NCBI GenBank assembly: GCA_007128135.1
Contig: SKYA01000010.1
Location: 1 to 57,197, forward strand
Direction of reading: 5' to 3'
DNA length: 57,197 nucleotides
Source of the DNA: Paracoccaceae bacterium
Lineage (GTDB): Bacteria > Pseudomonadota > Alphaproteobacteria > Rhodobacterales > Rhodobacteraceae
The position numbers and the translations under genes are program-made. Below, piece by piece: positions 28,783 to 40,072 of this stretch (position 1 is the stretch's first letter; the number at the start of each line of letters is the position of its first letter). A model generated the notes under the pieces. That model made no database searches. It was not told where the DNA came from and saw nothing but the letters and a program-made list of their open reading frames with translations.

Positions 28783-28802
28783 GTCAATTTCTGTAAATTG
28801 AC
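28783..28802. promoter_or_regulatory. Perfect inverted repeat upstream of the XRE/ScfR-type regulator
   Basis: GTCAATTT and AAATTGAC separated by CTGT, in the accB/regulator gap and 19 bases before the regulator ATG, just ahead of its AAGGGAG. Eight perfect bases per arm make an attractive autoregulatory operator. It differs from the TTTGCAAA-like sites reported for PccR/RamB relatives. Confidence 0.55.
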
Positions 28803-28820
28803 AGAGAAGGGAGTTTTCAG

Positions 28821-30143
28821 ATGCCCCGTCCCGCCCTGACCGGCACGCGAATCCGTGCAAGACGCAACCTGCGCGGGTTGCGCCAGGCGGAGCTTGCGCG
28901 AGAGGTCGGGGTCTCGCCCTCCTTCCTCAACCTGATCGAGCACAACCGCCGCAAGGTCAGCCCGCAACTTCTTGATGCGCTGGCAACGGCGCTCGGGGTC
29001 TCGGCGGACGCACTGATCGAGGATACCGATGCCCGGCTGATCGAGGGCGCGCGGGCAGCGGCGCAGCGCAGCGAGGCCGATCTGACCGAACTCGAGCGGA
29101 TCGACGAGTTCACCGGGCGTTTTCCCGGCTGGGCCAAGGTGCTGGCGGAAACCCAGGCGCGGGTCGAACGGCTGGAACGTGTGGTCGAGCAACTCAGCGA
29201 CCGCATGACCCATGACCCCTATCTGGGCGAGGCGCTGCACGAGATCATCTCGGCCGTGACCTCGGTGCAGTCGACTGCCAGCATCCTCATCGATGCCGAC
29301 GAAATCGATCCCGACTGGCAGGCGCGCTTTCACCGCAACATCGTGCAGGACTCCGCACGGCTGGCCGAAGGGGCGGTGGCGCTGGTCAATTACCTTGATA
29401 CCGCGCAGAGCGACGAGGCCGGGCTTGCCGCGCCGCAGGAAGAGGTCGAGGCCTGGCTGGCGCGGCTGGGCTTTCACCTGCCCGAGATAGAGAGCGGCAT
29501 GACCGATGCAGAGGCGCTGGTGCGGGGACAGGTGGAACTTTCCTCAGATGCCTCGCGCGCGCTTGCGCGGCAATGGATCGCCCGGTTCGCCGCCGATGCC
29601 GAAGCGCTTCCGCTTGACGAAATGGCCGCAGCCCTGACCGAGACGGGACTCGCGCCCGAGGCACTGGCCCAGCGCTTCGGCGTGCCTTTCGATCTGGTCC
29701 TGCGCAGGCTGGCACTGTTGCCGGAAGCGACATTGCAGGGTGCCGGCCTGCCGCCGCTCGGGCTGGTGATCTGCGACAGTTCGGGCACGATGGTGTTTCG
29801 CCGTGCGCTCGAAGGCTTTCGCCTGCCGCGTTTCGGTGGAGGCTGTCCGCTCTGGCCGCTCTACCAGGCGCTACAGCGTCCGCTGGTGCCGCTGAGGCAA
29901 GTGCTGGTTACGGCCGGGCGTCTCGGACGACGCTATCTGACCTATGCCTTTGCCGCGCCGCTGGGAGAGGTGGGCTATGACGCCCCGGTGGTGCTGCGCG
30001 CATCAATGCTTGTCGCACCGCTGGCCGCCGCCGGGGGGGATGGCGCAGGCGCGCCGGTTCCAGTCGGGGCCAGTTGCCGAACCTGTGCCCAGCTCGACTG
30101 CACGGCCCGGCGCGAGCCCTCCATCCTTGTGACCGGAGGATGA
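28821..30143 (+). CDS. XRE-family regulator, ScfR/DUF2083 type, with HisKA-like centre
   Basis: 440 aa. XRE HTH at ~8-65 (RNLRGLRQAELAREVGVSPS, FLNLIEHNRRKV); coiled segment 105-130; residues 131-192 resemble a kinase dimerisation/phosphoacceptor helix pair (EALHEIISAVTSVQSTASIL, then RNIVQDSARLAEGAVALVNY, with His140 where HisKA has its His); 260-303 is an IrrE-like remnant (ALAQRFGVPFDLVLRRLALL); 305-435 is DUF2083, ending VGASCRTCAQLDCTARREP with conserved cysteines. ScfR-type regulators sense short-chain acyl-CoA state. AAGGGAG precedes the ATG. It heads a module with a receiver and a sensor kinase. Confidence 0.85.
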   Translation: MPRPALTGTRIRARRNLRGLRQAELAREVGVSPSFLNLIEHNRRKVSPQLLDALATALGVSADALIEDTDARLIEGARAAAQRSEADLTELERIDEFTGRFPGWAKVLAETQARVERLERVVEQLSDRMTHDPYLGEALHEIISAVTSVQSTASILIDADEIDPDWQARFHRNIVQDSARLAEGAVALVNYLDTAQSDEAGLAAPQEEVEAWLARLGFHLPEIESGMTDAEALVRGQVELSSDASRALARQWIARFAADAEALPLDEMAAALTETGLAPEALAQRFGVPFDLVLRRLALLPEATLQGAGLPPLGLVICDSSGTMVFRRALEGFRLPRFGGGCPLWPLYQALQRPLVPLRQVLVTAGRLGRRYLTYAFAAPLGEVGYDAPVVLRASMLVAPLAAAGGDGAGAPVPVGASCRTCAQLDCTARREPSILVTGG

Positions 30144-30335
30144 GGCGGGAATGATGCGGGCATCTGGCGCTATCTTGCACTTTGACAGGCGCGGACGAAT
30201 GCAGGATACAGGAAAAGTTGCAAGGCAGTCCGGGAGGAGAAGACCTGCCATGCAATATCGGGCGGGGGGTTGCGGGGGTCAGGTCCGGTGGGCACCTTCC
30301 GGCGCCCGGTCGTGAGCTTTGGGAGGAGCCTTGCG

Positions 30336-30704
30336 ATGCAGAAGCGCGTGCTGGTCATCGAGGATGAGCCCAACATTTCCGAGGCATTGAGCTTCATCCT
30401 CAGTCGAAATGGCTGGCGGGTCGATGTGACGGCGGACGGAAAGGCGGCGCTGGGCCGCCTGTATGCCGACCCGCCCGACCTGCTCATCCTCGATCTGATG
30501 CTGCCGGGGGTGAGCGGTTTCGACATTCTTCGATCGGTGCGCGCGTGCGATGATACCCGCGCGCTGCCGGTACTGATGCTGACGGCCAAGGGGCAGGCCG
30601 CCGATCGGATCGAGGCCGAGCGTCTGGGAGTCACGCGCTTCATGACCAAACCCTTCGCGAATGCCGAGGTGCTGGCCGCCGTGCATGAGATGGCGCGGAC
30701 ATGA
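30336..30704 (+). CDS. Stand-alone response-regulator receiver protein
   Basis: 122 aa, one receiver domain and no output domain. Acidic pair E9/D10, phosphoacceptor D53 (LLILDLMLPG), switch T83 (LMLTAKGQ), and K105 (FMTKPF) are all present, so it should be phosphorylatable. GGAGGAG precedes the ATG by about seven bases; earlier in-frame starts are less good. Stop and next start overlap (ATGA). It lies between an XRE protein with a HisKA-like segment and a symporter-kinase, suggesting a phosphorelay shuttle. Confidence 0.92.
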   Translation: MQKRVLVIEDEPNISEALSFILSRNGWRVDVTADGKAALGRLYADPPDLLILDLMLPGVSGFDILRSVRACDDTRALPVLMLTAKGQAADRIEAERLGVTRFMTKPFANAEVLAAVHEMART

Positions 30705-30994
30705 AACCGCCAAGGACACAGCAATTCCTTGGGCGTGAAAGCTATCGGATGCGCCGTCTGATGGACGCCGCGCGAATTCTGCCCGTCTTTGCCCTTGTCC
30801 TGCTGCTGCTCCCGCTGATGCGCCACAGCCCCGAACTGGAGGCGCCGCCGACAGCCACCGAAAGCGTCTATCTGTTCGCGGTCTGGGCCGTCATGATCCT
30901 GCTGGCCTTCCTGCTCTCGCTCTGGCTGCGGCGCGCACTCGACCCGGCTGACAAGGGCAAGCGTCCGCACCGTGCCGGCCCCTCCGGGGAGTAG
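30701..30994 (+). CDS. Two-TM protein between receiver and symporter-kinase
   Basis: 97 aa; possibly 81 if the inner ATG (MRRLMDAARIL) is used. Hydrophobic helices near residues 24-42 (ARILPVFALVLLLLPLM) and 55-77 (SVYLFAVWAVMILLAFLLSL), with a basic C-terminal tail. The start overlaps the receiver stop, and the next gene starts six bases after the stop, so it is an integral part of the operon. Similar short proteins precede symporters and SSS-type kinases in other bacteria; a role in stabilising the transporter is inferred. Confidence 0.75.
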   Translation: MKPPRTQQFLGRESYRMRRLMDAARILPVFALVLLLLPLMRHSPELEAPPTATESVYLFAVWAVMILLAFLLSLWLRRALDPADKGKRPHRAGPSGE

Positions 30995-30999
30995 CGCGT

Positions 31000-33729
31000 A
31001 TGTCGTTCAACCTTCTGGTCCTGACCTGCCTTGGCTATGTGGTGCTGCTCTTCACAGTCGCCTCTGCAGCAGAGCGGGCAGCAGTGGCGGGGCGCGCAGG
31101 CTGGCTGCGCTCGCCCATGGTCTACACGCTATCGCTCTCGGTCTATTGCACGGCGTGGACCTTTTATGGCGCGGTCGGCTATGCGGCGCGCTCGGGGCTG
31201 GAGTTCATGACCATCTATCTGGGCCCGACGCTGGTCTTCGTCGGCTGGTGGGTGGTTCTGCGCAAGCTGGTGCGGATCGGGCGCGAGAACCGCGTGACCT
31301 CGATCGCCGACATGATTTCGGCGCGCTACGGAAAGTCCAACCTGCTGGGAGTGATCGTGACGCTCCTGTGCATCATGGCGGGCACGCCCTATATCGCGCT
31401 GCAGCTGCAATCCATCTCGCAGTCCTTCACGGTCTTCGTGACCGATCCGACCGGCCCTTCGCTTGCGACCGATACCACGCTGATTGCCTTCTGGGTGGCA
31501 GTGGGGCTTGCGTTTTTCACCATCGCCTTTGGCACGCGCACGCTCGATGCCAATGAACAGCATCCCGGCGTGGTCACAGCAATCGCGGTCGAGGCCGTGG
31601 TCAAGCTGCTCGCGCTGCTGGCGGTGGGCGTGTTCGTGGTCTGGTTCGTGGCCACCGGCCCGAGCGACATCCTTGCCCGGATCGACGCGCAGGCGCTGCC
31701 GGAATGGGAGATCCAGCCCGGGCGCTGGACAGGGCTGATCCTGCTGTCGGCCATCGCGATCATCTGCCTGCCGCGCATGTTTCAGGTCACGGTGGTCGAG
31801 AATACCAATGACCAACACCTTGCGACCGCAAGCTGGGCCTTTCCGCTGTACCTGTTCCTCATCAGCCTCTTCGTGCTGCCCATTGCAGTGATCGGGATGG
31901 AACTGATGCCTGCAGGCAGCAATCCCGACATGTTCATGCTTACCCTGCCGTTGCATCTGGGCCAGGACGGACTGGCGCTGCTGTCCTTCCTTGGCGGGTT
32001 TTCGGCCGCAACCTCAATGGTGATCGTGGCCTCGCTGGCACTGGCTACGATGGTGTCGAACCATATCGTGGTGCCACTCTGGTTGCGGGTGCGTGCCGTG
32101 CGGCAGCGCGACACGGGCGACATGCGGCTTCTGGTGCTCAGCGTGCGGCGGTTGTCGATCTCGCTCGTCCTGGGGCTGGGCTACGTCTATTACGTCATCA
32201 CCGGCGGCTCGGCTGCGCTGGCGTCCATCGGACTGATTGCCTTTGTCGGGGTCGCGCAATGCCTGCCGGCGCTGATCGGCGCGCTGTACTGGCGCGGTGC
32301 CAGCCGCAATGGCGCGGCACTGGGGCTCATTGCGGGCATGGTGCTGTGGTTCTATACGCTGTTCCTGCCCAGTTTCGGCCCGGAAGTCTTTCTCTCGGCG
32401 CGCGTCATGGAAAGCGGGCCATTCGACCTTGCATGGCTCAGGCCCTACAGCCTGTTCGGCCTGACGACACTCGACCCGCTGTTGCACTCACTGTTCTGGT
32501 CGCTCATGGTCAACATCGTGGCCTTCTGTTTCGGCTCCATCCTGTCCTTTCCCAGCCCGATCGAGCGGGTGCAGGGGGCGCTCTTCGTCGATATCTTCGA
32601 CCGTCCCGGCACTGCCCGAAGCTGGACCCGACCCATGGCCGAGGCCGAGGATCTGTTGCCCATGGCACAGCGCATCTTCGGCGCGACCGAGGCTCAGGCC
32701 TTTTTCCGCGCGCAGGCCGAGTTGCAGGGAAAGCAGGGCTTTCTGCCCGATATCACACCCGAGTTCCTGGAAGCGCTGGAGTTGAAGCTGGCGGGTTCGG
32801 TCGGGGCGGCCACGGCCTATGCCATGCTCGCCCAGACTGTCGGCACGTCGGTTGTCTCGGTCGATGACCTGATGGCCGTGGCCTCCGAGACAGCGCAGAT
32901 CATGGAGTATTCCGCCCAGCTTGAGGCGAAATCCGAGGAACTGACCCGCACCGCCCGCAAGCTGCGAGAGGCCAACGAGAAACTTCAGACACTCTCGGTC
33001 CAGAAGGATGCTTTCCTGAGCCAGATCAGCCACGAGTTGCGCACTCCGATGACCTCGATCCGGGCCTTCTCGGAGATCCTGATGGACGCAGATGGCATGT
33101 CGGACGAGGAGCAGATCCATTTCGCCCGAATCATCCATGACGAGTCGATCCGCCTGACGCGCCTGCTCGATGACCTGCTGGATCTGAGCGTTCTGGAGCA
33201 CGGCCAGGTGCAGCTCAACATCACGACCGCCAATCTGCGGGAATTGATCGACCGCGCGATCACGGCCTCGAATTCGGTGCAGGCCGAACGCAATTTCACA
33301 TTGCATCGCAGCCGCGACCGCGAGGATGTCGACATTACCACCGATGCCGGGCGGCTGGCGCAGGTCTTCATCAACGTGCTGTCGAACGCGCGGAAGTATT
33401 GCGATGCGGCGGACCCGCAGTTGCGGATCAAGGTCAAGCGGCGCAATGGCATGGTCGATGTGGATTTCATCGACAATGGCATCGGCATTCCGCGTGACAA
33501 GCAGGCGCTGATCTTCGAGAAATTCTCGCGACTGACCGATTCGATGCAGGCCGGCGGCGCGGGTCTGGGGCTCGCGATCTGCCGCGAGATCATGCATAAT
33601 CTGGGCGGCGATATTACCTATGTGCCGGGGCAGGGCGGGGCCGCCTTCCGCGTCAGTTTCCCGATGCAGCTGGAGGCCCGCGAGAGCAGCGCAAGACCCG
33701 CAACCGACCCCGCCGAGGCAGCCGAATAG
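31000..33729 (+). CDS. Sodium:solute symporter-fused sensor histidine kinase (CbrA-like)
   Basis: 909 aa. Residues ~1-510 form a multi-TM SSS transporter-type domain (YCTAWTFYGAVGYAARSGLE, ASIADMISARYGKS region, LPRMFQVTVVENTNDQHLAT). A soluble linker (~530-640) and coiled segment (AKSEELTRTARKLREANEKL) lead to HisKA with FLSQISHELRTPMTSIRAFS (His678), then HATPase: NVLSNARKYC, VDFIDNGIGIPRDKQALIFE, GGAGLGLAICREIMHNLGGD. CbrA-type kinases couple solute passage or presence to signalling. No receiver is fused; the neighbouring stand-alone receiver is the natural partner. Confidence 0.92.
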   Translation: MSFNLLVLTCLGYVVLLFTVASAAERAAVAGRAGWLRSPMVYTLSLSVYCTAWTFYGAVGYAARSGLEFMTIYLGPTLVFVGWWVVLRKLVRIGRENRVTSIADMISARYGKSNLLGVIVTLLCIMAGTPYIALQLQSISQSFTVFVTDPTGPSLATDTTLIAFWVAVGLAFFTIAFGTRTLDANEQHPGVVTAIAVEAVVKLLALLAVGVFVVWFVATGPSDILARIDAQALPEWEIQPGRWTGLILLSAIAIICLPRMFQVTVVENTNDQHLATASWAFPLYLFLISLFVLPIAVIGMELMPAGSNPDMFMLTLPLHLGQDGLALLSFLGGFSAATSMVIVASLALATMVSNHIVVPLWLRVRAVRQRDTGDMRLLVLSVRRLSISLVLGLGYVYYVITGGSAALASIGLIAFVGVAQCLPALIGALYWRGASRNGAALGLIAGMVLWFYTLFLPSFGPEVFLSARVMESGPFDLAWLRPYSLFGLTTLDPLLHSLFWSLMVNIVAFCFGSILSFPSPIERVQGALFVDIFDRPGTARSWTRPMAEAEDLLPMAQRIFGATEAQAFFRAQAELQGKQGFLPDITPEFLEALELKLAGSVGAATAYAMLAQTVGTSVVSVDDLMAVASETAQIMEYSAQLEAKSEELTRTARKLREANEKLQTLSVQKDAFLSQISHELRTPMTSIRAFSEILMDADGMSDEEQIHFARIIHDESIRLTRLLDDLLDLSVLEHGQVQLNITTANLRELIDRAITASNSVQAERNFTLHRSRDREDVDITTDAGRLAQVFINVLSNARKYCDAADPQLRIKVKRRNGMVDVDFIDNGIGIPRDKQALIFEKFSRLTDSMQAGGAGLGLAICREIMHNLGGDITYVPGQGGAAFRVSFPMQLEARESSARPATDPAEAAE

Positions 33730-33823: not shown

Positions 33824-33875
33824 CAGAACCGTGGTTTCCTGTTCGCGACACGCTTGCAGGAGGATGAGGCCAGCC

Positions 33876-35180
33876 ATGTCCAATTCCGTAACCACTCCCG
33901 GCATCCGGCACGGCCGACTTCCGGCCGAGCTTTATGCCAGCCATTTTGACGACCTCTACCCCGTTTATGATCCGCATGAAGCGATGGTCGCCGCCGACCG
34001 GTGCTATTTCTGCCACGATGCGCCTTGCATCACGGCCTGTCCGACCGAGATCGACATTCCGCTGTTCATCCGCCAGATTCAGGCCGGCCAGCCTGAGGCA
34101 GCGGCAAGGACGATTTTCGACCAGAACATCCTCGGCGGTACCTGCGCGCGCGTATGCCCCACCGAAACGCTGTGCGAAGGCGCCTGCGTGCGCGAGGCCG
34201 CCGAAGGCAAGCCGGTCGAGATCGGCCGCCTGCAACGCTACGCCACCGACGCGCTGATGGCGCGGCAGGGGCACCCCTATGCGCGCGCTGACAGCACCGG
34301 CAAGCGGGTCGCGGTTGTGGGGGCGGGGCCAGCGGGGCTGGCCTGTGCGCACAGGCTGGCGATGCACGGGCACGAGGTCACGATCCATGAGGCCGAGGCC
34401 AAGCCCGGCGGGCTGAACGAATACGGGATCGCCGCCTACAAGATGGCAGGCGGCTTTGCCGCGCGCGAGGTCGAGTGGCTCATGGGCATTGGCGGGATCA
34501 CGCTCGAGACCGGCAAGGCACTGGGGCGCGATCTCTCGCTCGATCAGTTGCAGGCCGGGTTCGACGCCGTGTTTCTCGGGATCGGCCTGGGAGATGTGAA
34601 CCGCCTGGACATTCCTGGCGAGAACCTTGACGGGGTACGCGATGCTGTCGAGTTCATTGCCGAACTGCGCCAGACCGAAGACCTTTCGCGCCTGCCGATC
34701 GGGCGCGACGTCGTGGTGATCGGGGGCGGCATGACGGCCGTGGACGCCGCCGTGCAGTCGAAGCTGCTGGGCGCCGAACATGTCAGCATGCTCTACCGGC
34801 GCGGGCGCGAGGCGATGAGCGCTTCCGATCACGAGATCGAACATGCCGCGACCGAAGGTGTCACGATCATCACCAACGCGACCCCGGTTGCGATCCATGG
34901 CCAGGGAGCGGTTGCCGAGGTGGAGTTTGCCTATACAGATGGGACGGGAGAGAATTTCCGTCTGCGCGCCGATCAGGTGTTCAAGGCCATCGGGCAGAAG
35001 CTCGCCGGCATGGACGGGCTGACGATGGAGGGCCGCAAACTCGCAGCCCAGCCAGCAGCCGGCGTCTGGGCCGGGGGCGACTGCACGGGCGGCGGGGAGG
35101 ATCTGACCGTGACGGCGGTCGCGCAGGGGCGCGATGCGGCAGCGGAGATTCACGCCTATCTGACAGGGAATGGTGGGTGA
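33876..35180 (+). CDS. preT: NAD-dependent dihydropyrimidine dehydrogenase subunit PreT
   Basis: 434 aa. The flavin/NAD subunit that feeds electrons to PreA for reduction of uracil or thymine. N-terminal Fe-S cysteines: CYFCHDAPCITACP and GTCARVCPTETLCEGAC; FAD motif RVAVVGAGPAGLACAHRLAM; NAD motif DVVVIGGGMTAVDAAVQ; FAD tail WAGGDCTGGGEDLTVTAVAQ. GAGG at -10 supports this ATG; an ATG four codons earlier touches an AGGAGG directly and is less likely. Its last codons lie in a palindromic repeat. Confidence 0.93.
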   Translation: MSNSVTTPGIRHGRLPAELYASHFDDLYPVYDPHEAMVAADRCYFCHDAPCITACPTEIDIPLFIRQIQAGQPEAAARTIFDQNILGGTCARVCPTETLCEGACVREAAEGKPVEIGRLQRYATDALMARQGHPYARADSTGKRVAVVGAGPAGLACAHRLAMHGHEVTIHEAEAKPGGLNEYGIAAYKMAGGFAAREVEWLMGIGGITLETGKALGRDLSLDQLQAGFDAVFLGIGLGDVNRLDIPGENLDGVRDAVEFIAELRQTEDLSRLPIGRDVVVIGGGMTAVDAAVQSKLLGAEHVSMLYRRGREAMSASDHEIEHAATEGVTIITNATPVAIHGQGAVAEVEFAYTDGTGENFRLRADQVFKAIGQKLAGMDGLTMEGRKLAAQPAAGVWAGGDCTGGGEDLTVTAVAQGRDAAAEIHAYLTGNGG

Positions 35181-35194
35181 ATCATCCACCCTAC
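35172..35194. repeat. Imperfect palindrome at the preT 3' end
   Basis: GGTGGGTG...CATCCACCC followed by TAC, one mismatch in the arms. A second copy of the same type lies at the end of the M20 hydrolase gene of the same cluster. In both the palindrome contains the stop codon of the gene. Looks like a short dispersed repeat of the GGTGGGT/ACCCACCCTAC kind seen in many bacteria. Confidence 0.55.
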
Positions 35195-35208
35195 AGGAGA
35201 CACGGACC

Positions 35209-36507
35209 ATGGCTGACCTGAGCACCAATTTCGTCGGAATCAAATCGCCCAATCCATTCTGGCTGGCCTCGGCCCCGCCCACCGACAAGGAATACAACGT
35301 GGTGCGCGCCTTCAAGGCGGGCTGGGGGGGCGTCGTGTGGAAGACGCTGGGTGCCGAAGGCCCGCCCATCGTCAACGTCAACGGTCCGCGCTATGGCGCG
35401 GTCTGGGGCGCGGATCGTCGCCTCATGGGGTTGAATAATATCGAGCTGATCACCGACCGCCCGCTGGAGGTGAACCTGCGCGAGATCAAGCAGGTCAAGC
35501 GCGACTGGCCCGACCGGGCCATGGTCGTGTCGCTGATGGTGCCCTGCGACGAGGACTCGTGGAAGGCGATCCTGAAACGGGTCGAGGAAACCGAGGCTGA
35601 CGGGGTGGAGCTGAATTTCGGTTGTCCGCATGGCATGAGCGAGCGTGGCATGGGCTCGGCCGTGGGGCAGGTGCCAGAATATATCGAGATGGTCACGCGC
35701 TGGGTGAAGCAGCATTCGCGCATGCCCTGTATCGTGAAACTGACCCCCAACATCACCGACATCCGCAAACCGGCCGAAGCGGCGAAGCGCGGCGGCGCCG
35801 ATGCAGTGAGCCTGATCAACACGATCAGTTCCATCACCTCCGTTGATCTGGACAGTTTCAGCCCCGAACCCTCGATTGACGGCAAGGGCGCGCATGGCGG
35901 CTATTGCGGCCCGGCCGTGAAGCCCATCGCACTGAACATGGTCGCCGAGATCGCGCGTGACCCGGCCACTGCCGGCCTGCCCATCAGCGGCATCGGCGGT
36001 GTCACCACATGGCGCGATGCGGCCGAGTTCATCGCGCTGGGCGCAGGCACGGTGCAGGTCTGCACGGCAGCCATGACCTACGGGTTCGGCATCATCAAGG
36101 AAATGACCGCCGGGCTCTCGCTCTATCTCGATGACAAGGGCATGACGCTGGACCAGCTGCAGGGCCGCGCGGTGCCGAATGTCACCGACTGGCAATACCT
36201 GAACCTCAACTATGTGACCAAGGCGCGGATCAACCAGGATCTGTGCATCCAGTGCGGGCGCTGCTATGCGGCCTGCGAGGACACCTCGCATCAGGCGATT
36301 TCGATGTCCCCCGAGCGCGTCTTCGACGTGATCGACGAAGAATGCGTGGCCTGCAATCTCTGCGTCAATGTGTGCCCGGTTCAGGATTGCATCACAATGG
36401 AGCAACTGCCCAAGGGTGCAACTGATCCGCGCACAGGTCACGAGGTCGGCGACTATGCCAACTGGACCACGCACCCGAACAACCCGATGGCCAGCGCTGC
36501 CGAGTAG
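35209..36507 (+). CDS. preA: NAD-dependent dihydropyrimidine dehydrogenase subunit PreA
   Basis: 432 aa. Catalytic FMN and Fe-S subunit reducing uracil/thymine to the 5,6-dihydro form. FMN barrel: NPFWLASAPPTDKEYNVVRA, LNFGCPHGMSERGMG, GISGIGGVTTW-type phosphate loop; catalytic loop around MVSLMVPCDEDSW. The C-terminus has two 4Fe-4S motifs, CIQCGRCYAACEDTSHQ and CVACNLCVNVCPVQDC. GGAGA precedes the ATG. Cotranscribed with preT, 28 bp apart; convergent with the RutR gene. Confidence 0.95.
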   Translation: MADLSTNFVGIKSPNPFWLASAPPTDKEYNVVRAFKAGWGGVVWKTLGAEGPPIVNVNGPRYGAVWGADRRLMGLNNIELITDRPLEVNLREIKQVKRDWPDRAMVVSLMVPCDEDSWKAILKRVEETEADGVELNFGCPHGMSERGMGSAVGQVPEYIEMVTRWVKQHSRMPCIVKLTPNITDIRKPAEAAKRGGADAVSLINTISSITSVDLDSFSPEPSIDGKGAHGGYCGPAVKPIALNMVAEIARDPATAGLPISGIGGVTTWRDAAEFIALGAGTVQVCTAAMTYGFGIIKEMTAGLSLYLDDKGMTLDQLQGRAVPNVTDWQYLNLNYVTKARINQDLCIQCGRCYAACEDTSHQAISMSPERVFDVIDEECVACNLCVNVCPVQDCITMEQLPKGATDPRTGHEVGDYANWTTHPNNPMASAAE

Positions 36508-36519
36508 CCCGTCAGATTG

Positions 36520-37170
36520 TCAGGGTGCCAGCAGCCGCTTGTATAGATGATCGAGAAAGGCCCCGGCCCCCTCGAACGGGTCATGGCCGGGGCCGCGGAT
36601 CATGTCGATTTGTGCGGTGAAATCGGCGTAATGCTGCGTAAGCGCCCAGATCGAGAAGATCAGGTGATGCGGGTCTATCGGTGCAATGCGCCCCGCGCGC
36701 GCCCATGCCGCGATGACGCTTGCCTTTTCATCGACCAGCGCCCTCAACTCGGTCGAGATGAAGCCTTCCAGCCGGGGTGCGCCCTGCAGGATCTCGTTTG
36801 CGAAGAGGCGGCTCTCGCGGGGATAGGCGCGCGACATCTCGAGCTTGCGATGCATGTAGGACAGGATCTCGACATCCGGCGCGCCGGACGGGTCGAGCTT
36901 GCGCAGGGGAGCCAGCCAGTCATCGAGCAGGCGCGTCAGCAGCGCGCGGTGAACGGTTTCCTTGCTGTCGAAGTAATAGAGCAGGTTTGGTTTTGACAGC
37001 CCTGCCTCGGCTGCGATCTGGTCAAGCGTCGCGCCACGAAAGCCATGATTGGAAAACACCTCGAGCGCGGCATCCAGTATCCGTTGGCGGTTGCGCTGCT
37101 GGATACGCGAGCGCGCGGGTTTCGCCAGCGTGCCGGGTTTTTCAGCGGAGGGCGGGCGCGGCGCAGGCAT
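36520..37170 (-). CDS. rutR: RutR-type TetR regulator of pyrimidine catabolism
   Basis: 216 aa. TetR HTH (NRQRILDAALEVFSNHGFRG, LDQIAAEAGLSKPNLLYYFD) followed by a C-terminal domain very like E. coli RutR: WLAPLRKLDPSGAP, YPRESRLFANEILQGAPRLE, PIDPHHLIFSIWALTQHYAD. RutR binds uracil and thymine and then leaves its operator. A TTGAC...GGTCAA site 16 bases before its start matches the RutR box, so autoregulation and control of the divergent hydrolase operon are expected. Confidence 0.88.
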   Translation of the reverse strand: MPAPRPPSAEKPGTLAKPARSRIQQRNRQRILDAALEVFSNHGFRGATLDQIAAEAGLSKPNLLYYFDSKETVHRALLTRLLDDWLAPLRKLDPSGAPDVEILSYMHRKLEMSRAYPRESRLFANEILQGAPRLEGFISTELRALVDEKASVIAAWARAGRIAPIDPHHLIFSIWALTQHYADFTAQIDMIRGPGHDPFEGAGAFLDHLYKRLLAP

Positions 37171-37185
37171 GGCATGACAAGCTTC

Positions 37186-37201
37186 TTGACTGAATGGTCA
37201 A
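37186..37201. promoter_or_regulatory. RutR box between rutR and the hydrolase operon
   Basis: TTGACTGAATGGTCAA, 14 of 16 positions matching TTGACCANNTGGTCAA when the two free centre bases are counted (right half perfect, left half two changes). It lies between the divergent rutR and M20 hydrolase genes. The consensus is known for E. coli RutR; binding here is inferred. Confidence 0.72.
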
Positions 37202-37307
37202 AGTTGATAGCGTCTTGTGACGAAGAGTGCAAGGTGGCGCTGCGCCGCCCAGCAGGGACTGCGAACAAGAGCAGCCGGAAAATGCTGCCATGACGGGGGG
37301 TTGAGAG

Positions 37308-38561
37308 ATGTCGGCACCAGGTGCGAACCTGAAGATCAATGGCGAGCGGCTCTGGGACAGCCTGATGGAGATGGCGCGGATCGGCCCCGGAATTGCCGGG
37401 GGAAACAACCGCCAGACAGTGACGGATGAGGATGGCAAGGCCCGTCACCTGTTCCGCAAATGGTGTCAGGAGGCCGGCGGCAGCGTCGGCGTGGACGAGA
37501 TGGGCACGATGTTCGCGCAGTTCGATGGTGCCGATCCCGAGGCGCTGCCGGTCTATGTAGGCAGCCATCTCGACACCCAGCCAACGGGCGGCAAGTATGA
37601 CGGCGTTCTGGGAGTGCTCGCCGGGCTGGAGATCATCCGCTCGATGCGCGATCTGGGCATCAGGACACGCCGCCCCATCGTGGTGGTGAACTGGACCAAT
37701 GAGGAGGGCACGCGTTTTGCTCCGGCGATGCTGGCCTCTGGCGTGTTCGCAGGCGTGCATGATCGCGACTGGGCCTATGACCGGGTCGATGCGCAGGGCA
37801 AGCGCTTCGGCGACGAGCTTGAGCGTATCGGCTGGAAGGGTGACGAGCCTGTCGGCAGGCGCAAGATGCATGCGTTTTTCGAACTGCATATCGAGCAGGG
37901 GCCGATTCTGGAGGCAGAGGGCAAGGATATCGGGGTGGTCACGCATGGTCAGGGCCTGCGCTGGATCGAGTGCACCGTGACCGGAAAGGGCCAGCATACG
38001 GGCTCGACGCCGATGTACATGCGCCGCAACGCGGGCCGGGGGCTCGCGCGGGTGACGGAACTGGTTCATGAGATCGCACTGAAGCACCAGCCCAACGCGG
38101 TCGGCGCGATCGGGCATGTCGATGTCTATCCCAACAGCCGCAACATCATCCCGGAAAAGGTTGTGTTCACGATAGATTTCCGCAGCCATGTTCTGGAGAC
38201 GCTGGAGGCGATGGTGGCAGAGCTGAACACCCGTGCACCGGGAGCCTGCGCGGATATAGGGGTAAAGTTTTCCGCCCGGATTGTCGGCCAGTTCAACCCA
38301 CCCGCCTTTGACGAGGTTCTGCTGGGTCGTATCCGCGATGCCGCCGCCCGACTGGGCTGCAGCCATATGGATATCGTCTCTGGCGCGGGCCATGATGCCT
38401 GCTGGATCAACCGGCTTTATCCGACCGCGATGATCATGTGCCCCTGTGTGGATGGTCTGAGCCATAACGAGGCCGAGGAGATCACACCCGCATGGGCCGA
38501 GGCGGGGGCCAATGTGCTGATGCATGCGGTGCTGGAAACCGCAGAGGTGGTGGGTGCGTAG
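37308..38561 (+). CDS. M20-family N-carbamoyl amidohydrolase (beta-ureidopropionase-like)
   Basis: 417 aa. Expected to hydrolyse N-carbamoyl-beta-alanine to beta-alanine, CO2 and ammonia, the last step of reductive pyrimidine breakdown. Zinc-binding motifs of the HyuC/AMA family: VGSHLDTQPTGGKYDGVLGV, VVNWTNEEGTRFAPAMLASG, FFELHIEQGPILEAEG, and terminal GAGHDACWINRLYPTAMIMC. The dimerisation domain is residues ~215-330 (GQHTGSTPMYMRRNAGRGLA). N-carbamoyl-L-amino-acid hydrolase is the main alternative; the preTA and dihydropyrimidinase neighbours favour the pyrimidine role. Its stop lies inside a palindrome. Confidence 0.9.
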   Translation: MSAPGANLKINGERLWDSLMEMARIGPGIAGGNNRQTVTDEDGKARHLFRKWCQEAGGSVGVDEMGTMFAQFDGADPEALPVYVGSHLDTQPTGGKYDGVLGVLAGLEIIRSMRDLGIRTRRPIVVVNWTNEEGTRFAPAMLASGVFAGVHDRDWAYDRVDAQGKRFGDELERIGWKGDEPVGRRKMHAFFELHIEQGPILEAEGKDIGVVTHGQGLRWIECTVTGKGQHTGSTPMYMRRNAGRGLARVTELVHEIALKHQPNAVGAIGHVDVYPNSRNIIPEKVVFTIDFRSHVLETLEAMVAELNTRAPGACADIGVKFSARIVGQFNPPAFDEVLLGRIRDAAARLGCSHMDIVSGAGHDACWINRLYPTAMIMCPCVDGLSHNEAEEITPAWAEAGANVLMHAVLETAEVVGA

Positions 38562-38569
38562 CACCCACC
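38549..38569. repeat. Perfect palindrome at the M20 hydrolase 3' end
   Basis: GGTGGGTGC and GCACCCACC around GTA; the TAG stop is within it, and CTACGGGTTGTGCCC follows. Related to the element at the end of preT (shared GGTGGGTG and CCACCCTAC). Could act as a weak terminator between the hydrolase and dihydropyrimidinase. Confidence 0.6.
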
Positions 38570-38620
38570 CTACGGGTTGTGCCCGCTTCGTGCGGGGGGA
38601 AGAAAACGAGGAGTAGCACC

Positions 38621-40072
38621 ATGTCCACTGTCATCAGGAACGGAACCGTCGTCACCCATGACCTGACTTACAATGCCGATGTGCGGGTCGAGGGCGGCAA
38701 GATCACCGAAATCGGCCCGAACCTTTCGGGCGACAGGGAACTCGACGCCACAGGCTGCTTCATCATGCCGGGCGGCATAGACCCGCATACCCATCTGGAA
38801 ATGCCCTTCATGGGCACCTATTCCAGCGATGATTTCGAATCCGGCACGCGCGCGGCACTTTCGGGCGGCACCACCATGGTGATCGACTTCGCGCTGCCCA
38901 GCCCCGGGCAGGGGCTGCTCGATGCGCTGTCGATGTGGCACAACAAGTCGGGCCGCGCGCATTGCGACTACTCGTACCACATGGCCGTGACCTGGTGGGG
39001 ACCTCAGGTCTTTGACGAGATGCCAAAGGTCGTCGAGCGCGGCATCACCAGCTTCAAGCATTTCCTTGCCTACAAGGGCGCGCTGATGGTCAATGATGAC
39101 GAGTTGTTCGCCTCCTTCCAGCGCCTGCGTGAACTCGGGGCCATCGCCATGGTCCATGCCGAGAATGGCGATGTGGTGGCGGAACTGTCCGCGAAACTGC
39201 TGGCCGAGGGCAATACCGGCCCCGAGGCGCACGCCTATTCGCGCCCCTCCCAGGTCGAAGGCGAGGCCACCAACCGCGCCATCATGATTGCCGACATGGC
39301 AGGTGTGCCGCTCTACGTGGTGCATACCTCCTGCGAGGAAGCGCATGAGGCCATCCGCCGCGCGCGCCAGCAGGGCAAGCGCGTCTGGGGCGAACCGCTG
39401 ATCCAGCATCTGACGCTCGACGAATCCGAGTATTTCCATCCCGACTGGGACCACGCGGCGCGGCGCGTCATGTCGCCCCCCTTCCGCAACAAGATACATC
39501 AGGACAGCCTGTGGGCCGGGCTGGCTGCGGGGTCGCTCTCGGTCGTTGCCACCGATCATTGCGCCTTCACCACCGAACAGAAGCGCTTCGGTGCGGGTGA
39601 TTTCACCAAAATCCCCAATGGCACCGGGGGCCTTGAGGACCGTATGCCCATGCTCTGGACCCGTGGCGTGCGCACGGGGCGGATCACGATGAACGAATTT
39701 GTCGCCGTGACCTCGACAAATGTCGCCAAGATCTTCGGGATGTATCCGAAGAAGGGCGCGGTCGCTGTCGGGGCTGATGCCGATCTGGTCGTCTGGGACC
39801 CGGAAAAATCGAAGACCATCACCGCCAGCACGCAGCAATCGGCCATCGACTACAATGTCTTCGAGGGGCAAGAGGTGACCGGCCTTCCGCGCTTCGTGCT
39901 GTCGCGCGGACGGGTCATGGTCAAGGACGGTGCCTTCGACGGGCAGGAGGGGCATGGTGAATACGTCGCGCGCGAGCCGAACGGTCCGGTCAGCCAGGCG
40001 CTTTCGACCTGGAAGGACCTGACCGCCCCGCGTCCGGTGTCGCGCGCGGGCATCCCCGCGACGGGGGTGTGA
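38621..40072 (+). CDS. hydA: Dihydropyrimidinase (D-hydantoinase)
   Basis: 483 aa. Opens dihydrouracil to N-carbamoyl-beta-alanine. Two-metal amidohydrolase barrel: GGIDPHTHLEMPFMG with H56 and H58, the SFKHFLAYKG segment (145-153) with the carboxylated bridging lysine, YVVHTSCEEAHEAIR, and ATDHCAFTTEQK with the catalytic Asp. Full length for the family. GAGGAG lies upstream of the ATG. Follows the M20 enzyme by 59 bases, with an unknown 170 aa gene three bases after its stop. Confidence 0.95.
   Translation: MSTVIRNGTVVTHDLTYNADVRVEGGKITEIGPNLSGDRELDATGCFIMPGGIDPHTHLEMPFMGTYSSDDFESGTRAALSGGTTMVIDFALPSPGQGLLDALSMWHNKSGRAHCDYSYHMAVTWWGPQVFDEMPKVVERGITSFKHFLAYKGALMVNDDELFASFQRLRELGAIAMVHAENGDVVAELSAKLLAEGNTGPEAHAYSRPSQVEGEATNRAIMIADMAGVPLYVVHTSCEEAHEAIRRARQQGKRVWGEPLIQHLTLDESEYFHPDWDHAARRVMSPPFRNKIHQDSLWAGLAAGSLSVVATDHCAFTTEQKRFGAGDFTKIPNGTGGLEDRMPMLWTRGVRTGRITMNEFVAVTSTNVAKIFGMYPKKGAVAVGADADLVVWDPEKSKTITASTQQSAIDYNVFEGQEVTGLPRFVLSRGRVMVKDGAFDGQEGHGEYVAREPNGPVSQALSTWKDLTAPRPVSRAGIPATGV

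Follow-up and report, generated by a model that had tools for sequence, protein, structure and literature searches.

A kinase-type phosphoacceptor helix pair in an XRE/ScfR regulator and its proposed place in a phosphorelay

The locus and its genes

The window examined in this study, that is, the whole stretch of 57,197 nucleotides from contig G000:C129 of the 3.3-Mb draft genome of a Paracoccaceae bacterium, carries on its plus strand, in this order, the genes of an XRE/ScfR-type regulator, a stand-alone receiver, a 97-residue protein and a symporter-fused histidine kinase, followed by preT (Table 1). The accB and accC genes are the divergent neighbours of the regulator. Among named records, the nearest loci are those of Rhodobacteraceae metagenome-assembled genomes and, among named genera, of Roseinatronobacter, Natronohydrobacter and Roseibaca. 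An original prediction had suggested that kinase, receiver and regulator form a three-step phosphorelay that runs to a kinase-like histidine, His140, in the regulator. As we show below, the regulator carries a helix pair of the HisKA type (DHp) as its middle domain, and a relay through His140 is proposed to control acs, the gene of acetate--CoA ligase.

The domain composition of the three proteins bears out what had been predicted for them. Membership of the regulator in the ScfR family is seen in HTH_3 and ScfRs (PF09856; residues 312-435, with 53.4 bits where 24 are required), both of which score above their Pfam cut-offs. No HATPase_c follows the DHp-like part in the Pfam scan, as it would in a histidine kinase, the ScfR core being found there instead. 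The receiver is output-free, with PF00072 as its only domain and no DNA-binding domain, unlike the DNA-binding response-regulator partner of CrbS/CrbR. It has the full catalytic set (E9/D10/D53/T83/K105), of which D10, D53 and K105 are invariant among the 197 receivers collected, with T83 found as Thr in 193 and as Ser in 4; the length lies between 118 and 145 amino acids in 195 of these 197. The kinase shows HisKA (669-735) and HATPase_c (782-890) but, in the same type of scan, neither a receiver nor a DNA-binding domain, and neither the Pfam SSF family nor a model of the STAC linker was among its matches. Its SLC5-like part (residues 3-460; kinase domains at 659-886) matches the solved chain 10ed_A (E 4.5e-72), which is named only 'histidine kinase' in its record. 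With His678 of the kinase, Asp53 of the receiver and His140 of the regulator all conserved, the acceptor set of a multistep phosphorelay is complete, and none of the four genes here encodes a second receiver, so that within the locus the relay would lack an Asp-bearing response regulator at its end, though one may be encoded elsewhere. The 97-residue protein between receiver and kinase, overlooked in the original prediction, looks like a protein of two transmembrane segments. It has no significant match to a Pfam or NCBIfam family, and tblastn (E≤1e-6) detects it at 89 of the 115 loci first collected, many of whose stretches are short. Its place recalls that of cbrX upstream of cbrA.

Table 1. 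Features of the regulator-receiver-kinase locus (positions within the window)
Feature	Position	Strand	Remarks
Palindrome TCAATTT-N4-AAATTGA with one TGTAAA box, candidate local operator	28784..28801	.	20-37 bp before XRE start
XRE/ScfR-type regulator with inserted HisKA-type (DHp) domain, 440 aa	28821..30143	+	
HTH_3 DNA-binding domain, residues 11-64	28851..29012	+	Pfam 52.6 bits, cut-off 23
DHp/HisKA-like helix pair, residues 131-192	29211..29396	+	
His140 codon, proposed phosphoacceptor	29238..29240	+	
ScfR core, residues 205-440, shortened DIII domain	29433..30140	+	CoA pocket lost, 4Fe4S ligands kept
Single-domain receiver, 122 aa, phosphoacceptor D53 (codon 30492-30494)	30336..30704	+	PF00072 only
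97-aa protein, two hydrophobic stretches	30701..30994	+	4-base overlap with receiver gene
Symporter-fused histidine kinase, 909 aa, His678	31000..33729	+	
preT	33831-35180	+	

Conservation of the gene arrangement was surveyed in two sets of loci. The family set consists of 203 aligned rows minus three PccR-type proteins (L212-L214), hence 200 orthologues; the set outside the family derives from 385 genomes of the class, with full-length matches in 39 genomes, 37 of which were fetched. Regulator, receiver and kinase stand together on one strand in 189 of the 200 family loci, an outcome in favour of the original prediction. Among the remaining loci, three have the kinase cut or too short at the end of the stretch and eight are without receiver and kinase, one of these (L064) being cut by the contig end. 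Outside the family, a receiver or kinase is present in the fetched stretch of 29 of the 37 loci. The divergent neighbour is a gene for a UrtA-like ATP-binding cassette (ABC) transporter substrate-binding protein in 127 of the 187 family loci with enough flank, and in 20 loci this gene separates the regulator from acs, which is found ∼5.5 kb upstream on the other strand. As seen at L072 (1492-6853), the transporter is encoded by five genes, its UrtA-like protein scoring 66 bits, far below the urea cut-off of 493.

The helix pair and its histidine

The idea that residues 131-192 resemble a kinase phosphoacceptor was borne out by profile comparison. An alignment of 73 middle domains, picked from 158 rows, was compared by hhalign to the DHp domains of the partner kinases and gave a probability of 97 (E 2e-11, 28% identity) at a score of 63.8, a value that shuffling the columns 150 times never reached (mean 11.9, maximum 19.2). 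For 18 further HisKA domains encoded in this genome the score was 26.6, again beyond all of 150 shuffles (mean 10.9, maximum 18.0). Regulator and partner-kinase domains align as a single helix-turn-helix hairpin of equal length. Consistent with this, the NCBIfam model of CreC (positions 240-306) picks up residues 115-183 of the regulator at E 6.8e-4, and with the regulator as query against the complete genome, the window's own kinase was among the hits (E 3.2e-5). HisKA matches at E≤1 occur in 20 of the 73 aligned members (best 3.4e-5). Among nine distant relatives scanned, four exceed the Pfam cut-off of 26.9 bits (L295 38.7, L297 33.8, L298 33.1 and L303 31.9), all four with the domain order HTH_3-HisKA-Peptidase_M78-ScfRs, while HisKA is below the cut-off in L296, L300 and L288 and unmatched in L268 and L292. 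The AlphaFold model places helices at 102-131, 133-158 and 164-197 (predicted local distance difference test score of 78 for the domain alone and 91 for the full protein), the hairpin anticipated earlier, with His140 on the first helix of the pair. Kinase chains lead the Foldseek search with this domain and, being of kinase or hybrid-kinase type, make up 15 of the top 16 matches (E 0.07-0.5), including HK853/RR468, LvrB, VC2136, SrrB and DivL, and these matches, individually weak, are nonetheless consistent with a DHp fold.

To judge from a tree of 112 rows, a single capture from the partner kinase is the probable origin of the domain. Built on 65 columns, few for so many rows, the tree carries warnings of long branches and an unsettled bootstrap; in it, 55 regulator DHps cluster together (100/99) and the cluster joins four symporter-kinase DHps (96/78), while those regulators whose H-box is of textbook form (THELRTFLTSIRSFSEIL in L295, HELRT forms) branch near its base. 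The PccR-type paralogue of the same genome is without the DHp insert.

Position 140 is His in 198 of the 200 family orthologues, which answers the question of conservation that the original prediction had raised, and outside the family it is His in 30, Phe in 4, Gln in 2 and Tyr in 1 of the 37. The losses are distributed unevenly. Outside the family, His is kept at 29 of 29 loci that have receiver or kinase, and lost at 7 of 8 that have neither; taking both sets together, His is absent in 2 of 221 linked and in 7 of 15 unlinked loci (L064 dropped; Fisher p 3e-8, a value that is overstated because the seven losses fall in about two clades, with about two independent events per linkage class). 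The pattern is suggestive of a loss of the histidine that goes with loss of linkage. The simpler notion that it follows loss of the receiver-kinase system itself was ruled out, the symporter-kinase being present in 21 of 21 genomes tested. The receiver stands beside the unlinked symporter-kinase in all 16 regions examined, and acs was found in the same stretch as the unlinked pair in 5 of the 16. In two genomes of another family whose regulator has Gln in place of His (L333, L334), the receiver-kinase pair stands beside accB and accC, like the cluster of the window.

The residues around the histidine have diverged selectively from those of the kinases. In autokinase chemistry the acid at H+1 is needed, and the partner kinases have Glu at H+1, Arg at H+3 and Pro at H+5 in 40 of 40 compared. 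Family regulators retain Glu or Asp at H+1 in 183 and Ser or Thr at H+4 in 193 of 200, but have Leu, Ile or Val at H+3 in all 200, the kinase Arg being lost, and the residues listed for H+5 do not include Pro. When 55 regulators were compared in a mixed set, to which relatives outside the family contributed 37, Glu was found at H+1 in 15, Arg in 14 and Gln in 10. The offsets +7, +8, +11, +12 and +15, which we take from published specificity work to face the receiver, show an identity of 0.56 between regulator and same-locus kinase as compared to 0.16 against the 18 unrelated kinases; for neighbouring offsets the values are 0.55 and 0.31. Retention of the His and the receiver-facing residues, with other H-box residues dropped, would be the profile expected of a phosphoacceptor that is fed by a receiver.

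Operator, acs and the CoA pocket

The hexamer TGTAAA occurs upstream of the regulator in 173 of the 200 family loci (mean of 12 in mononucleotide shuffles), and 91 of the 200 have two copies exactly 32 bp apart, which in most of the listed sites precede the start by ∼88 and 56 bp. A search with the strict pattern in 25 genomes returned 17 sites in 16 genomes, 15 of them at the regulator, as compared to 2 in the reversed control. Strict sites away from the regulator, L351 (G073; score 17.4) and L362 (G007; 24.6), might mark further targets; ABC genes were sought at these two sites and none was there. The window's own genome has a single exact match to the corrected operator pattern, TGTAAATATATTCACATTATGACCGTAAATATCGTAAA, with TTGTAAA boxes 32 bp apart, and it lies ∼150 bp before the acetate--CoA ligase gene (L344); the same pattern finds one further site with two mismatches, the control none. 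The partial protein of L344 scores 701.8 bits with NCBIfam PRK00174 (cut-off 657) and 692.5 with the equivalog TIGR02188 (cut-off 725). In the matrix score, this acs operator reaches 55.4, close to the training median of 57.6. With the unrefined pattern and one mismatch allowed, the genome has two sites versus three in the reversed control, a count uninformative alone; the scores are 55.4 for acs and -3.6 for the other site (L345).

Of the 52 genomes that have both genes, 22 place acs no more than 12 kb from the regulator. A promoter was counted as positive when it scored above 5, a threshold set after the training minimum of 4.6 was known; in the first set of acs promoters (n=30), one of 10 shuffles passes it in 2 of the 30 loci. 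Where the regulator is present but unlinked, 19 of 21 promoters were above the threshold; the counts were 0 of 8 for linked promoters and 0 of 1 without the regulator. A second set (n=20) comprised 15 promoters from regulator-bearing genomes, made up of second acs copies and three long-form genomes (the long form of G017 being assumed from its search match), and five from genomes lacking the regulator. Taking both sets together, 26 of 36 unlinked or second promoters and 0 of 8 linked ones exceed the threshold. These data point to acs as a probable conserved target of the regulator, a conclusion we hold with moderate certainty. The paired operator as a binding site for the window regulator at its own promoter was not supported (score -25), and the same applies to preT as a target, which the original prediction had noted just downstream: the best score upstream of preT is -10.5 and no score in the whole window exceeds -8, as compared to 55.4 at acs, and preT adjoins the locus only in close relatives, among loci with enough flank.

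As for the acyl-CoA input that had also been predicted, the evidence speaks against it. PrpR of M. tuberculosis is described with F155, K217, F240, H319, R338, K347 and K410 as contacts of coenzyme A (CoA) and C363, C447, C450 and C455 as ligands of the 4Fe4S cluster (PMC6765138). Counted over F240, H319, R338 and K347, the contacts have largely disappeared from the family: the segment is deleted at the position of F240 in 196 of 200 regulators, that of H319 is Arg in 192 of 200, and the positions of R338 and K347 are mostly hydrophobic. The same four are kept in 28-32 of the 37 relatives outside. The cysteines of the cluster, C342/C419/C422/C427 in the window protein in alignment with the four of PrpR, are found in 199, 198, 198 and 197 of 200 in the family and in 36 of 37 outside. 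Median length is 528 amino acids in the long form as compared to 436 in the Rhodobacteraceae form. The long form probably integrates CoA and phosphate, and the Rhodobacteraceae form has given up the CoA pocket; with that pocket lost from the Rhodobacteraceae members, an acyl-CoA input to the window regulator seems unlikely. Two more ScfR-type regulators are encoded in the same genome (G000:C177 and G000:C197; L002 and L003), and the one on C177 aligns to PrpR residues 69-460 and is without a DHp insert.

The proposed relay, its alternatives and related systems

From what the computations establish, namely DHp homology and its likely origin, conservation of the histidine, synteny, loss of the pocket and linkage to acs and the operator, we infer phosphotransfer, its direction, its effect on DNA binding, the sense of control (activation or repression) and the signal. 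In this relay, the symporter-kinase would autophosphorylate at His678 and then phosphorylate the stand-alone receiver on Asp53. Docked on the regulator's DHp-like domain, the receiver would transfer its phosphate to His140 or exchange it reversibly. The phosphohistidine may alter the dimer formed by coil and DHp between HTH and ScfR core, and the altered dimer may in turn change binding to TTGTAAA-type operators, hence transcription of acs. That a relay from kinase to receiver to His140 ends in this manner in a transcription factor and controls acs is, in our assessment, reasonably probable. In evolutionary terms, the DHp stands before a complete ScfR core of the CoA-binding type in distant Alphaproteobacteria; in Rhodobacteraceae the pocket was lost afterwards, leaving phosphorylation as the likely main input. 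We lean, with some reservation, towards the broader view of an architecture found throughout the Alphaproteobacteria: the phosphoacceptor of the partner kinase has been captured by a DNA-binding protein, an output-free receiver phosphorylates the captured His, acs is controlled, and the pocket was later discarded in one family.

A number of observations weigh against this interpretation. Regarding the fold, no Foldseek match reaches E 0.001 and the fifth in rank is an unrelated coiled coil, ING3. The window regulator is without a Pfam HisKA (PF00512) match even at E≤1 and does not reach the curated cut-off of that family, and its domain alone finds only FAD-SLDH in Pfam (E 0.0011, below the cut-off). 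The middle-domain profile, searched against PDB sequences, gave five matches at E≤1, none of them a kinase and the best an exosome protein (0.064). We accept the DHp homology in spite of that last result on the strength of the alignment between profiles, the Pfam hits in distant relatives and the Foldseek matches. Regarding the histidine, it is missing in two linked family members (L108 Asn, L188 Tyr) and in seven relatives outside the family, though the receiver-kinase pair persists elsewhere in the genomes of the latter. The acid at H+1 is kept in the family of the window, and direct phosphorylation by the kinase would be compatible with the sequence. Mutual information between receiver and DHp (134 complete triples) was dominated by variable columns, and the kinase-receiver positive control failed as well. 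To our knowledge, there is no precedent in two-component systems of a relay that ends on histidine, not aspartate. Regarding the target, the paired 32-bp operator is absent upstream of the window's regulator, where the best position weight matrix score is -25, and in the second set of acs promoters, 7 of 15 with the regulator and 2 of 5 without it exceed the threshold. For both of the latter two, shuffles reach 10-14; the status 'without regulator' comes from a search scoring at most 11 candidates per genome, and the one genome without the regulator in the first set recurs here as L413.

Part of this evidence could be read differently. Conserved receiver-facing residues, and a DHp without the canonical Arg and Pro of the H-box, would equally be found if the receiver, phosphorylated or not, only docked and switched the regulator allosterically, with His140 as binding surface and no transfer. 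We consider this unlikely, because a residue that serves only as a contact should show more drift than a His present in 198 of 200 family members and in 30 of 37 outside, where H+1 varies freely. The close relationship of the regulator DHp to the partner kinases' own DHps, the HELRT retained in basal members and the acid at H+1 (Glu or Asp in 183 of 200) would fit a regulator DHp phosphorylated directly by the kinase, with the receiver as a phosphatase or sink. In either variant, the two DHps pairing or the regulator DHp being presented to the ATP-binding domain of the kinase, such a route strikes us as quite improbable: outside the family the acid at H+1, dispensable for transfer from a receiver, is mostly lost (Glu in 15 of the mixed 55) and yet the His stays, and both Arg at H+3 and Pro at H+5 are gone. 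Finally, the seven relatives without His, whose receiver-kinase pair persists unlinked elsewhere in the genome, might suggest that the DHp-like insert serves as a dimerisation scaffold only, without a relay and with the locus as a co-inherited neighbourhood. We give this very little credence, in view of the concentration of His loss at unlinked loci (7 of 15 versus 2 of 221 linked, with the p value overstated as noted above) and of a near-invariant His that a scaffold leaves unexplained.

The relay preferred here combines elements that are individually familiar. ChpT, Spo0B and PhyT reuse a kinase-like fold for accepting phosphate from a receiver; a response regulator receives it from them in turn, and they are not known to carry a DNA-binding domain. 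PRD-containing regulators are transcription factors controlled by phosphohistidine, but they are phosphorylated by the phosphotransferase system, the donor being HPr/EII and the domain unrelated, with no two-component proteins involved. Within the openly accessible literature, we found among the matches listed no published description of an ScfR/XRE regulator joined to a kinase phosphoacceptor or phosphorelay, nor of a DNA-binding DHp phosphotransferase. The nearest working analogues are CrbS/CrbR (MxtR/ErdR) and RpuS/RpuR, which likewise involve a symporter-fused histidine kinase and relate to acetate use, the CrbS/R output including acs, and which differ in that their response regulator itself acts on the promoter (PMC5436829, PMC9100948). 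The response regulator is of the LuxR family in the S. fredii systems, and CrbS has a receiver of its own (PMC5436829, PMC9100948). The window locus departs from CrbS/CrbR in that kinase and receiver are both output-free and the DHp-bearing ScfR protein is the proposed output. With the ScfR family (PrpR/MccR, RamB, PccR), the regulator shares the HTH, the C-terminal ScfRs domain, the four 4Fe4S cysteines and paired-box operators (PMC6765138, PMC10370305). It differs by the inserted DHp, by loss of the CoA pocket in Rhodobacteraceae and by TTGTAAA boxes at a 32-bp period, the operator of RamB from Paracoccus being described as two boxes with an 18-bp spacer (PMC10370305).

If correct, the relay would explain how many output-less symporter-kinases and orphan receivers act on genes, and would provide a clear case of a transcription factor that has acquired the phosphoacceptor domain of its kinase. 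Acetate control in Rhodobacteraceae would become testable via H140, D53, H678 and the acs promoter. A candidate for a tractable case, going by its published gene context, is Pden_1785 of Paracoccus denitrificans, an ScfR-network gene that the relevant passages of the Paracoccus study note without further study and list, together with Pden_2985, as clustered with two-component genes and an isocitrate lyase-type gene, 'respectively' (PMC10370305).

Downstream of the kinase, positions 33831-40072 of the window hold preT, preA, a TetR-like regulator and amidohydrolase-like and hydantoinase-like genes, which adjoin the locus in close relatives and form a cluster that we take to resemble one for reductive pyrimidine breakdown.

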